Source: Parvicella tangerina
GTDB taxonomy: Bacteria > Bacteroidota > Bacteroidia > Flavobacteriales_D > Parvicellaceae
Assembly: GCF_907165195.1 (NCBI RefSeq)
Contig: NZ_OU015584.1
Coordinates: forward strand, 3,420,978-3,484,977
Reading direction: 5' to 3'
DNA: 64,000 nucleotides
This document shows positions 4,817 to 46,389 of this stretch, piece by piece (positions within the stretch are counted from its first letter, which is position 1; each line of letters begins with the position of its first letter). Both the position numbers and the translations under genes were made by a program. The notes below the pieces were generated by a model that saw only the letters and a program-made list of their open reading frames with translations, did no database searches and was not told where the DNA came from.

Positions 4817-5746
4817 TCAAAAGTCAAAGAAATTCTCATTCTCTTTCTTAAACAAAGTTAGATCCAAGCCTACAAAAAACTCGTGCGCAAAAAACACCTC
4901 ATCATTTCCAAAACCAGTGTAGGTTACCAGATCATAGGCAAAACGGACGTGCTCAGCTTCAAACCCGAGTGCCGTGTAAAACGTATTGAAATTCTGTATG
5001 CCTCCGTTAAAGTAAAACTTTTTCCAGTTTACCTTCAACCCACTCAGCAAAGTCTGAAAACTGCCCTGACTCCTAAACTCTAAGTGAGGGACTAATGACC
5101 AGTCTTCCCCTAGCCTAAACTTTGCCCCAAGTTGCCCAAAATACATTCTGGGAAGTACATCAGGAGAGGTTAAGTTGAGCAAAAAACTCTGGTCTGGCTC
5201 TGTGATATGTTTGATCGAAAAACCCGCATACAAAAAAGAGCTATAATACATTACTCCAGCACTCATATCCATATTTGCAACGGTGGTTTTATATTGTCCT
5301 AGTCCTGAAGCTGGATAAACGTATCCTTGTCTTGGGTCAATCATCCCTCCGAAAGTCAACCTACTGGGGTCTAATCGTTTCTGGAAGTAGCTCAGATCAA
5401 CCCCTGCGGAAAGAAAATGATCATCAGCCAAGCGCACCCGTTTAGCATATCCAACCGTAATTTGTCTTTTATAGATGGTTTGTGCTGCGTTATCTGTAAA
5501 CAGCTGAAGGGAAACACCATTCCCCTTTCCCAAATACTGGTTAAAGGCAGTTACTGAGGTAATATAATCTCCTGAAACCCTCGGCCATTGATGACGGTAT
5601 CCAACATCAGCCGAAAAACTTTTATTCAAGCCACTAAAGGCTGGATTGTTATAAACTCTCAACGTCCGAGTGGAATAGAAAAAAGGATCCTGTGCAGTAA
5701 AAGACAGTGTCCAAAGGAAAGTAAGGGTGAATAAAAGCGTTTTCAT
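4817..5746 (-). CDS. PorP/SprF family type IX secretion membrane protein
   Basis: A 309-residue outer-membrane beta-barrel of the PorP/SprF family, whose members accompany type IX secretion and gliding adhesins. The signal peptide (residues 1-18, ending SFTAQD) is followed by the family hallmark of an NPAFSGL motif, and then a tyrosine-arginine-glutamine-tryptophan-proline segment (YRHQWP). The remainder is alternating beta-strands ending in a charged NFFDF tail. Many Bacteroidota encode several paralogues, each often next to its own cargo gene, but no such cargo is adjacent here, so this may be a stand-alone copy. Confidence 0.85.
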   Translation of the reverse strand: MKTLLFTLTFLWTLSFTAQDPFFYSTRTLRVYNNPAFSGLNKSFSADVGYRHQWPRVSGDYITSVTAFNQYLGKGNGVSLQLFTDNAAQTIYKRQITVGYAKRVRLADDHFLSAGVDLSYFQKRLDPSRLTFGGMIDPRQGYVYPASGLGQYKTTVANMDMSAGVMYYSSFLYAGFSIKHITEPDQSFLLNLTSPDVLPRMYFGQLGAKFRLGEDWSLVPHLEFRSQGSFQTLLSGLKVNWKKFYFNGGIQNFNTFYTALGFEAEHVRFAYDLVTYTGFGNDEVFFAHEFFVGLDLTLFKKENENFFDF

Positions 5747-43780: not shown

Positions 43781-44686
43781 ATGAGTAACTATAACTTAAC
43801 CCATTTAAAAGAATTAGAGGCAGAAGCGATCTACGTTATCAGAGAGGTTGCTGCTCAATTTGAAAACCCCGTACTCCTATTTTCAGGAGGAAAGGATTCG
43901 ATTGTTTGCTATCACTTAGCTAGAAAAGCCTTCTACCCTGCCAAGGTTCCTTTTCCTTTGATGCACGTGGATACGGGGCACAACTTTCCAGAGACAATTG
44001 AGTTTAGAGATAACTTAATGAAAAAAACGGGAGATAACCTCATTGTTGCTCATGTTCAGGACTCCATTGACAAAGGACGGGTTGTTGAAGAAAAAGGTAT
44101 TTATGCTAGTAGAAATAAACTACAAACAACGACTCTCCTAGACGCGATCGAAGAAAACAAGTTTGATGCTGCAATGGGCGGTGCTAGAAGAGATGAGGAA
44201 AAAGCAAGAGCAAAAGAAAGGTTCTTCTCTCATCGAGATGAATTTGGCCAGTGGGATCCTAAAAACCAGCGTCCTGAGCTTTGGAACATCTTTAACGGCA
44301 AGAAAAATATGAGAGAACACTTTAGAGTATTCCCTATTTCTAACTGGACAGAAATGGACATTTGGCAGTACATTTTGCATGAGGGAATCGACCTACCCAT
44401 GCTATACTTCTCACATACTAGGAAATGTTTCGTAAGAGATGGTATCATCATGGGTAAGACTGATTTTGTATTGACCAAAGATGATGAAGAGATCAAGGAT
44501 ATGGTCGTTCGATTTAGAACTATCGGAGATGCCACTTGTACTGGTGCCGTCTCAAGTACAGCTTCTACTTTAGAAGAGATCATTGAAGAAGTTGCTTCTA
44601 CGAGAGTAACAGAGCGAGGTGGTCGTTCTGATGACAAGCGAAGCGAAGCAGCAATGGAAGACCGTAAAAAAGAAGGATACTTCTAG
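43781..44686 (+). CDS. cysD: Sulfate adenylyltransferase small subunit
   Basis: A 301-residue PP-loop ATPase subunit of ATP sulfurylase. The LLFSGGKDSIVCYHLARK loop binds ATP, and HTRKCFVRDG and GRSDDKRSEAAMEDRKKEGYF are family signatures at the C-terminus. With CysN it forms APS from sulfate and ATP. It is normally followed directly by cysN, but here a 434-base interval containing a small gene separates them. Confidence 0.96.
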   Translation: MSNYNLTHLKELEAEAIYVIREVAAQFENPVLLFSGGKDSIVCYHLARKAFYPAKVPFPLMHVDTGHNFPETIEFRDNLMKKTGDNLIVAHVQDSIDKGRVVEEKGIYASRNKLQTTTLLDAIEENKFDAAMGGARRDEEKARAKERFFSHRDEFGQWDPKNQRPELWNIFNGKKNMREHFRVFPISNWTEMDIWQYILHEGIDLPMLYFSHTRKCFVRDGIIMGKTDFVLTKDDEEIKDMVVRFRTIGDATCTGAVSSTASTLEEIIEEVASTRVTERGGRSDDKRSEAAMEDRKKEGYF

Positions 44687-44700
44687 AAAAATTGAAATCT

Positions 44701-44724
44701 GAAAGTTGAGATCTGAGAATGAAC
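44701..44724 (+). repeat. Left inverted repeat of the cassette
   Basis: This is the left arm of the pair. It starts GAAAGTTGAGATC and ends ATGAAC, and it sits inside a run of 7-base units TGAAATC, TGAAAGT, TGAGATC, TGAGAAT from 44693 to 44720. It lies 14 bases after the cysD stop. Confidence 0.75.
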
Positions 44725-44731
44725 CAAAGAT

Positions 44732-45079
44732 TTGGAAGGAGATTTACAAAATAGAACAAAGGAGTTTTCACTTGACACTGTGGCTTTCTATTCAAGCTTA
44801 CCAAACGGAGAAGTTTACTATACTTTGGGTAAGCAACTATTGAGAAGTGGGACATCCGTTGGAGCTAACACCAGATCAGCATTCAGAGGACGAAGTAATA
44901 AAGAGTTTATAGCCAAACTTGGAGTGGTAATTGAAGAGGCGGATGAAAGTATTTTTTGGCTAGAGTTATTAGAAAAACAACAAGACATTAATAATGACAA
45001 ATTGAAAGCATTGAAAGAAGAAGCGAATGAACTTGTTTCGATTTTTGTTTCTATAGTAAAGAAATCTAAAAATCGATAG
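44732..45079 (+). CDS. Four-helix-bundle protein (23S rRNA intervening-sequence family)
   Basis: A 115-residue all-helical protein of the family encoded in 23S rRNA intervening sequences and related to Avd of diversity-generating retroelements. The core motif QLLRSGTSVGANTRSAFRGR, the AKLGVVIEEADES block and FWLELLEKQ are typical. Its function is unknown; a basic surface that binds RNA or DNA is usually suggested. It starts at a TTG, since the ATG at 44719 is out of frame. It is inserted in the sulfate-activation operon and flanked by inverted repeats. No reverse transcriptase is near, so this is not a retroelement. Confidence 0.88.
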   Translation: MEGDLQNRTKEFSLDTVAFYSSLPNGEVYYTLGKQLLRSGTSVGANTRSAFRGRSNKEFIAKLGVVIEEADESIFWLELLEKQQDINNDKLKALKEEANELVSIFVSIVKKSKNR

Positions 45080-45103
45080 TTCATCCCTCTGATTTCAACT
45101 TTC
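45079..45103 (-). repeat. Right inverted repeat of the cassette
   Basis: This is the reverse complement of the left arm with three differences and one extra base. It begins at the last base of the gene's stop codon and ends 17 bases before the cysN ATG. Confidence 0.75.
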
Positions 45104-45120
45104 TTATTTAAAAAAGAAAA

Positions 45121-46389
45121 ATGGCAGAAAGCAATGCATATTTAGACATGGACCTTTTACGATTCACAACAGCAGGAAGTGTTGATGATGGAAAAAGCAC
45201 GCTAATTGGTCGGTTATTATACGATAGTAAGTCCATATTTGAAGATCAAATGGAAGCTATCGAACAGGCAAGTACTAAGAAGGGCGAAGAAAGAGTAAAC
45301 CTGGCTCTTTTGACAGATGGCTTGAGAGCCGAAAGAGAGCAAGGAATCACGATTGATGTTGCCTATAGATACTTTGCAACTCCAAAAAGGAAATTCATTA
45401 TTGCTGACACTCCTGGCCACATTCAGTACACCAGAAATATGATTACTGGAGCCTCTACAGCTAACCTAGCGATTATTTTGGTAGATGCAAGACATGGCAT
45501 TGTTGAACAAACTTCAAGACACTCGTTCATTGCGTCTATGTTGGGAATTCCCCACATCGTTTACTGTATCAATAAAATGGACCTCGTAGATTATTCACAA
45601 GAGCGATATGAGGAAATCAAAGACGATCTCGAGGAGTTCAGTTCAAAGCTTGAAACAAAAGATATTCGTTTTATTCCAATGAGTGCATTGTTTGGAGACA
45701 ACGTAGTAAACCGATCTGAAAACATGGATTGGTACCAAGGATCCACTTTGCTACATACATTGGAAACCGTTCATATTGCATCAGATCATAACCATATTGA
45801 CTGCCGTTTTCCTGTACAATATGTAGTAAGACCACAATCATCAGACTATCCTGATTACAGAGGTTTTGCTGGTAGAGTTGCTGGAGGCGTGTTTAAGAAG
45901 GGTGACGACATCATGGTAATGCCTTCTGGCTTCACCTCTAAAATTGCTGCTATTGACACGATGGATGGTGAGATCGAAGAAGCTTTTGCACCAATGTCTG
46001 TGACGATTAGACTAGAGGACGAAATTGACATCAGCCGTGGAGACATGATCGTTAGGCCGAATAATCAGCCAGACAGCGAACAGGATGTTGAAGCCATGAT
46101 GTGTTGGTTATCTGAAAAGCCCATGACTCCAAATGGTAAATACTACCTCAAGCATACCTCACGTGATGCAAGATGTATGATCAAAGAAATTAACTACAAA
46201 TTGGATATCAATACGCTTCATAGAAATGAAGAGGACAAAAATATTGAAATGAATGATATCGCAAGGATCAAGTTAAGAACTACGATCCCTCTTTTTGTTG
46301 ATCGTTACCAGCGCAACAGAACTACTGGAAGCTTCGTCTTAATTGATGAGGCAACGAACAATACGGTTGCCGCTTGTATGGTTATCTAA
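45121..46389 (+). CDS. cysN: Sulfate adenylyltransferase large subunit (GTPase)
   Basis: A 422-residue translation-factor-like GTPase that couples GTP hydrolysis to APS formation by CysD. G1 is GSVDDGKST, G3 DTPGHIQYTRNM, G4 NKMD, followed by two beta-barrel domains ending VIDEATNNTVAACMVI-type sequence. It lacks a C-terminal CysC fusion, which agrees with the separate cysC gene. The ribosome must reach it across the inserted cassette. A strong terminator follows. Confidence 0.95.
   Translation: MAESNAYLDMDLLRFTTAGSVDDGKSTLIGRLLYDSKSIFEDQMEAIEQASTKKGEERVNLALLTDGLRAEREQGITIDVAYRYFATPKRKFIIADTPGHIQYTRNMITGASTANLAIILVDARHGIVEQTSRHSFIASMLGIPHIVYCINKMDLVDYSQERYEEIKDDLEEFSSKLETKDIRFIPMSALFGDNVVNRSENMDWYQGSTLLHTLETVHIASDHNHIDCRFPVQYVVRPQSSDYPDYRGFAGRVAGGVFKKGDDIMVMPSGFTSKIAAIDTMDGEIEEAFAPMSVTIRLEDEIDISRGDMIVRPNNQPDSEQDVEAMMCWLSEKPMTPNGKYYLKHTSRDARCMIKEINYKLDINTLHRNEEDKNIEMNDIARIKLRTTIPLFVDRYQRNRTTGSFVLIDEATNNTVAACMVI

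Follow-up and report, generated by a model that had tools for sequence, protein, structure and literature searches.

Among the described systems closest to the locus analysed here, there is the intervening sequence (IVS) of the Coxiella burnetii 23S rRNA, an insert of roughly 430 nt that carries an S23p ORF and ends in stem-forming terminal inverted repeats, with tandem heptamers just upstream of the ORF that vary between strains (two versus three copies of GACAGAT) and with a sporadic occurrence (PMC4990558). Excision of this IVS by RNase III has been demonstrated, and its ORF seems to be untranslated and decaying (PMC4990558). The cyanobacterial STRRs are period-7 tandem repeats that are intergenic, often inverted and hairpin-forming, one of them lying between the hydrogenase genes hupS and hupL (PMC2670836), and other intergenic heptamers are GGGAATC in Xanthomonas and TAACTGA in Beggiatoaceae (PMC4692102, PMC4679880). 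The heptamer-repeat studies on Xanthomonas/Nostoc and Beggiatoaceae make no mention of S23, and we found no paper joining S23, IVSs and heptamer repeats (subscription literature was outside the search, and priority is uncertain). A further relative is Avd, an accessory protein of diversity-generating retroelements with a homologous four-helix-bundle fold (PMC10053308).

An S23 cassette between cysD and cysN

The window, that is, the whole stretch of 64,000 nucleotides of Parvicella tangerina DNA that was analysed, contains a cassette between the two sulfate adenylyltransferase genes, with the following features.

43781 to 44686, + strand: cysD, sulfate adenylyltransferase subunit 2, upstream host gene (ORF; NF003587 458 bits, TIGR02039)
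44684-44686, + strand: stop codon TAG of cysD, abutting the element
44692 to 44723, + strand: left arm, four degenerate heptads, starting 5 nt past the cysD stop codon
44693-44699, 44700-44706, 44707-44713 and 44714-44720, + strand: left-arm heptads TGAAATC, TGAAAGT, TGAGATC and TGAGAAT, respectively
44732 to 45079, + strand: S23/IVP four-helix-bundle gene, class B, with an RSGTSVGAN motif (PF05635, TIGR02436, PDB 2rld)
45080 to 45112, + strand: right arm, carrying the left-arm heptads in reverse complement and ending 8 nt ahead of the cysN ATG
45121 to 46389, + strand: cysN, sulfate adenylyltransferase subunit 1, intact downstream host gene (ORF; TIGR02034 575 bits)

The S23 ORF of 115 codons lies on the same strand (+) as cysD and cysN and belongs to the family according to its matches to PF05635 (58.7 bits, cut-off 33.8) and TIGR02436 (82.7 bits, cut-off 24); a related solved structure is PDB 2rld (E = 1.8e-20). 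These matches bear out the sequence-only reading, made from the letters of the window alone, which had recognised a gene of this family between cysD and cysN. The start codon, TTG, is aligned with ATG in congener G001 and with TTG in congener G002. Relative to the congeners the gene has a dN/dS of 0.09-0.10, with synonymous sites near saturation, therefore the protein is in use and the ORF is under purifying selection.

The inverted repeats that the same reading had placed around the gene were also found, with 21 matches over 26 nt (81%) between positions 44692-44717 and 45087-45112. The RNA duplex predicted from the two flanks has an energy of -25.4 kcal/mol and a run of 13 pairs, whereas 2000 shuffles of these flanks gave a mean of -8.7 (sd 2.6) and none reached the observed value. 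The terminal stem is present in the minimum-energy fold of the complete cysD-cysN junction as well, the z of this whole-junction fold being only -1.7 because the S23 ORF dominates it.

Like an rRNA IVS, the window cassette has an S23 ORF, stem-forming terminal inverted repeats and upstream tandem heptamers (here the four degenerate heptads). Among the features compared, only its location sets it apart from the rRNA IVSs, since it lies in a protein-coding operon (cysD/cysN) and not in a 16S or 23S rRNA gene; unlike the Coxiella ORF, its ORF is conserved by selection. The cassette most likely works like an rRNA IVS. Heptamers of the STRR kind are carried by S23 flanks of Nostoc and Planktothrix, the window arms being a degenerate version of them, but unlike the published STRRs and heptamer repeats the S23 arrays bracket a gene as a pair and move with it. 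The rRNA IVSs, and likewise the STRR hairpins of cyanobacteria, seem to be elements of one type with the S23 cassettes. PADLOC gave no match, and Rfam nothing relevant.

S23 elements also resemble IS elements and MITEs in having inverted terminal repeats, many sites and, clearly in one relative of the window copy (L267), a short target duplication, but they have no transposase; the S23 ORF is the sole gene between the window arms, where the sequence-only reading had likewise seen no transposase. Terminal sequences common to the copies, as expected of an IS or MITE, were not found, and swapped arms fail to pair; given that the termini differ between copies, sequence-specific recognition of the ends is unlikely. 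In contrast to a diversity-generating retroelement, neither a reverse transcriptase nor a template or variable repeat lies next to the window cassette.

Paired arms are copy-specific and belong to the S23 gene

The P. tangerina genome contains nine PF05635 genes, the window copy and eight more, nearly all of them flanked by inverted repeats of their own, with a sequence peculiar to each copy. Two sets amounting to 170 S23 loci were analysed: an order set of 95 distinct S23 genes from this genome and relatives in the same order (91 with full flanks), and a cross-phylum set of 79 class-B loci in genomes from many phyla, with four loci common to both. For each locus the left flank was aligned to its own right flank in reverse complement, and the score was compared with those of permuted partners.

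In the order set (91 loci), own arms had a mean score of 15.1 versus 9.0 for permuted partners (sd 0.23; maximum of 10.4 over 20000 permutations), and 64% of the loci beat 95% of swaps. The cross-phylum set gave 19.0 versus 9.1 (sd 0.34), with 72% of the loci beating 95% of swaps. Arm pairing was seen in both subclasses (57% of class A, 73% of class B), while only 1.9% of 106 control genes with intergenic space on both sides, from the same kind of genomes, beat 95% of swaps. About one third of S23 loci have no significant arm pair; the window arms pair with each other better than with 99.4% of arms from other copies. The search for the paired repeat with this protein family that the sequence-only reading had called for finds it around most copies, with the amendment that the arms are copy-specific period-7/8 arrays rather than one fixed repeat. 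These observations show that the S23 gene has arms of its own, which are paired, copy-specific and of period 7/8.

When non-syntenic loci are compared pairwise, those with more similar proteins also have more similar arms (Mantel r 0.185, permutation maximum 0.07), although the correlation is weak overall, and the kin of the window copy at three other loci (L134, L147 and L135) all have arrays of the TGAAATC/GGAAATA type. S23 proteins that are 60-82% identical were found in unrelated contexts and phyla, and when the S23 gene moves to an unrelated site, its type of arm sequence tends to go with it. We also considered an excess of G-U over A-C mismatches in the arms (158:125) as proof of RNA-level selection on pairing, and rejected it since it was not significant overall (p = 0.057).

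Arrays of period 7 or 8 mark S23 flanks

Autocorrelation of the S23 flanks gave peaks at lag 7 (z of 17 on the left and 19 on the right) and lag 8 (z of 10 and 7, respectively), with no comparable lag-7/8 peak within the gene body or farther outside. With fixed thresholds, 58 and 67 arrays in the two sets had lag 7, 19 and 19 had lag 8, and almost none had other lags. The density of lag-7 arrays at S23 flanks was 206-283 per 100 kb, to be compared with 12 arrays in 464 kb of S23-bearing genomes, nearly all from a single genome (G054), and with none in 400 kb from genomes that lack S23. Arrays without the gene accompany S23 throughout the genome in G054, but not as a general rule. In that genome there are many intergenic heptad arrays without S23 (L218-L221), of GGTAGAC/GGTGGAC and GGATTGC types, in addition to eight S23 genes.

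Array copy number shifts quickly between strains: the near-identical copies L267 and L268 differ by two heptads, and Planktothrix strains have four versus six CCCCAAT units and three versus four CGTAAAT units. On plasmid pNsp_b of Nostoc ATCC 53789, a GACTTGC/GACTTAC heptad array of ~280 nt (L276:2390-2700) lies directly downstream of an S23 gene, upstream of xisH/xisI and near a DDE integrase.

Filled and empty sites

Plasmids of Trichormus and Scytonema carry a 414-428-bp insert that plasmids of Aulosira, Nostoc linckia and Tolypothrix (~97% identity) do not have. The empty Nostocales site reads AAAAAGTAATTAACAAATAAATATG, and the filled one AAAAAGTAAT/AAATCAGAATTCAG...S23...GAGTTCTTCTTT/GTAATTAAC. 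The Trichormus-type insert (L267) has a 5-bp target duplication, GTAAT, which includes the stop codon, and its arms and gene arrive jointly at an array-free site. In another operon, here X-Y-Z, the plasmids pNsp_a, pC052_D and pNPM1 have an S23 element in the X/Y junction, which in related plasmids (~91-95% identity) is a gap of 3 nt. The Y/Z junction, an overlapping TAATG on other plasmids, is occupied on pNsp_c by a different S23 element with other arms. The Y/Z element (L265) has the duplication TAATG/TTATG, which was graded probable, whereas the TTCTA repeated at the X/Y element (L216) is ambiguous and was downgraded as a clean duplication because the related L266, in another context, also ends in GAATTCTAG; this TTCTA may be element-derived. 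In all, one target duplication is unambiguous (GTAAT) and one more is probable.

The filled and empty sites between nrdA and nrdB are consistent with insertion, with flanks too diverged for a duplication to be read, and the pairs Picosynechococcus PCC 7003/7002 and Anabaena 90/Dolichospermum 0315A were set aside as duplication cases owing to diverged flanks or to other repeats at the site. Anabaena sp. 90 carries its S23 at cas6/cas4; the 98% identical plasmid of Dolichospermum 0315A (L282:780-1020) has an unrelated inverted repeat, GTAGGTTGGGTT, at that position. Old copies in general gave a weak signal (18 versus 11.4 expected), and at the window copy any duplication would be masked by low-complexity A runs. 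The absence of a visible target duplication noted from the sequence is true of this copy, but duplications are seen in relatives.

The Nostocales inserts, of ~420-510 bp, lie at the upstream stop codon with both flanking genes intact (filled and empty sites at 91-97% identity). Such elements insert exactly at intercistronic junctions, leave the neighbours intact and can duplicate a ~5-bp target containing the stop codon.

These sites bear on the idea that heptad hairpins arise alone at gene junctions and capture S23 genes by recombination. Gene-less heptad hairpins do exist, at the cysD-cysN junctions of three genomes (see below), in G054 and as the cyanobacterial STRRs, e.g. between hupS and hupL (PMC2670836). 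However, in most sampled genomes the arrays are almost confined to S23 loci, and the Trichormus insert brought arms and gene together, with its 5-bp duplication, into a site free of arrays, which makes this order of events unlikely. We consider it probable, instead, that what lies between cysD and cysN is a copy of a widespread mobile element, composed of a heptad array, the S23 gene and an inverted heptad array. The mobile, IVS-like cassette entering mRNA operons that the sequence-only reading had suggested is largely upheld by empty sites and recurring paired repeats, and is much more general than was proposed.

Sporadic and repeated occupation of the cysD-cysN junction

The survey of the junction covered 30 relatives that have cysN. 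An orthologous S23 gene lies between cysD and cysN in congeners G001 and G002, whereas congener G003, with a gap of 75 nt and no cassette, has an empty site of the kind that the sequence-only reading had proposed to look for, and nearly all of the family is without it. Other S23 genes occupy the same junction elsewhere, one of class A (L037), a distant one of class B (L017) and additional ones of class B in Flectobacillus, Cyclobacteriaceae, Ignavibacteria and others. A single clade for the class-B cysD-cysN genes was rejected (AU p = 0.0001), while the six nearest Bacteroidota rows may share a single origin (AU p = 0.09). Judged from these trees, the junction is a target that has been hit several times independently, and the nearest Bacteroidota kin of the window copy at this junction could stem from one old insertion. 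The nearest relative outside the genus, 62% identical and from Ignavibacteriales, lies between a carbamoyltransferase gene and an XdhC-family gene, and close kin are also found at a PTR2/PTR2 site.

In the cysD-cysN gaps of G012, G004 and G038 (L018, L019 and L040, respectively) there are array-like inverted repeats without S23, which may be remnants; the genomes G004 and G012 lack S23 genes altogether. In another genome, four S23 genes or fragments lie within 5 kb around cysD-cysN (L079, G029:C4:121000-131000).

The orthologues in two congeners and the single origin allowed for the six nearest rows (p = 0.09) are what would be expected of an ordinary small gene inherited vertically at this junction, with inverted repeats due to chance or resembling a terminator. 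Such a history is nevertheless very improbable, given the arm statistics with their control genes, the empty and filled sites, the polyphyly of the cysD-cysN S23 genes (p = 0.0001) and the close kin at the argF-like/xdhC-like and PTR2/PTR2 sites; neither is the gene fixed between cysD and cysN nor are the repeats absent from other copies of the family.

Insertion geometry and genomic context

Among 78 loci with clear arms and a co-directional upstream gene, the left arm begins 2 nt past the stop codon and the right arm ends 8 nt ahead of the start codon (medians); insertions that break genes may be selected against, which could account for part of this nearness to stop codons. Both neighbours are co-directional with S23 at 81% and 77% of the loci in the two sets, versus 52% of null triples.

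In the P. tangerina genome, S23 elements lie in scoA/scoB, sdhA/sdhB-like, hemB/aminotransferase, SSB/SSB and MiaB-like/sigma-54 activator junctions, two copies are in a fadB-like/thiolase/acyl-CoA dehydrogenase cluster, and one more lies ahead of a thiolase gene. Among the plasmid sites there are drmD/pglX, nrdA/nrdB, cmr2/cmr3, cas6/cas4 and an iron-sulfur assembly gene/sufB. As a list of cases, many sites adjoin partner genes of one complex, a pattern that operon architecture alone may give. The site is not special to cysD-cysN, though that junction is targeted repeatedly.

One could suppose from such a list that the cassette is domesticated, its protein and stem tuning the flanking operon, e.g. 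the CysD:CysN stoichiometry. This fits the purifying selection on the window ORF and the recurrence between partner genes (cysD/cysN in several lineages, scoA/scoB, sdhA/sdhB-like, fadB-like gene/thiolase, nrdA/nrdB and cmr2/cmr3), but it is difficult to reconcile with a sporadic presence (absent from G003 and most of the family), with unrelated S23 subfamilies at the same junction (class A in L037, a distant one in L017) and with junctions that have no partner relation (argF-like/xdhC-like, MiaB-like/sigma-54 activator), and we regard a regulatory role as quite improbable.

The sense-strand bias, on the other hand, would be compatible with retro-insertion, in which a reverse transcriptase in trans copies the RNA of the element and S23 takes the part that its homologue Avd (PMC10053308) has in diversity-generating retroelements. 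Reverse transcriptase genes are present in 10 of 26 S23-bearing versus 3 of 34 S23-free relatives, and P. tangerina itself has two. Against this, neither of the two lies near the cassette, one element (L277) is antisense to its operon, and G055 (10 S23 genes), G029, G030, G033 and G038 have S23 with no RVT_1 match. A resident reverse transcriptase as obligatory partner was rejected on the case of G055, and retro-insertion as such seems unlikely. The two RVT_1 genes of the window genome, at G000:C1:1880356 and 3944766, have identical score and length; with the cassette at 3.47 Mb and these genes at 1.88 and 3.94 Mb, the sequence-only reading was right to see no reverse transcriptase by the cassette.

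Insertions into coding sequence also happen, as judged from two Verrucomicrobia loci (L141 and L142, ~4990-5360 each) with a 97%-identical S23 element at different points of an apparently broken hsdM-like gene, whose identity was judged by eye from its translation. A Desulfuromonadales MAG and Desulfocarbo indianensis (L198, L207) share, at 96% identity, a block of 927 bp that includes an S23 element, and the sequence beyond this block does not align, pointing to recent lateral transfer. Phages and viral contigs were discarded as S23 carriers, with only two matches each.

A proposed mechanism

We suppose that the element would be transcribed from the host operon, as its co-directionality with both neighbours at ~80% of loci suggests, and that its arms would pair in the cysD-cysN mRNA so that the S23 cistron is looped out. 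By analogy with the rRNA IVSs the paired arms would be a probable RNase III substrate, and cutting at the stem itself is conceivable, if somewhat doubtful. With arms of different sequence in each copy, it is unlikely that a transposase reads a fixed end. The S23 ring protein might bind the arms by structure, not sequence, and aid insertion at new junctions, with cutting and joining by some enzyme acting in trans; we put forward this scheme of DNA-level insertion helped by S23 only tentatively. The arrays would lengthen and shorten by slippage, and their complementarity could be kept by hairpin template switching. To the host, the element would be a near-neutral parasite, made tolerable by its landing between genes.

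Significance

S23 genes are annotated as 'four helix bundle protein' without a role in many bacterial phyla, and the function of the cyanobacterial STRR heptamers is still described as unknown; here the two are tied together as one mobile unit. The filled and empty sites make the spread of IVSs and the role of S23 directly testable. Entry into operons at a stop codon, with genes unbroken and with copy-specific ends, is outside known transposition schemes. It may be, although we hold this to be somewhat less likely than not, that these elements form a separate class of bacterial mobile elements, with no transposase, with ends read by structure or periodicity, with insertion at and duplication of the stop codon keeping operons intact, and with the S23 ring as mobility factor, of which the rRNA IVSs, the STRR hairpins of cyanobacteria and further heptamer repeats between genes would be members or remnants.
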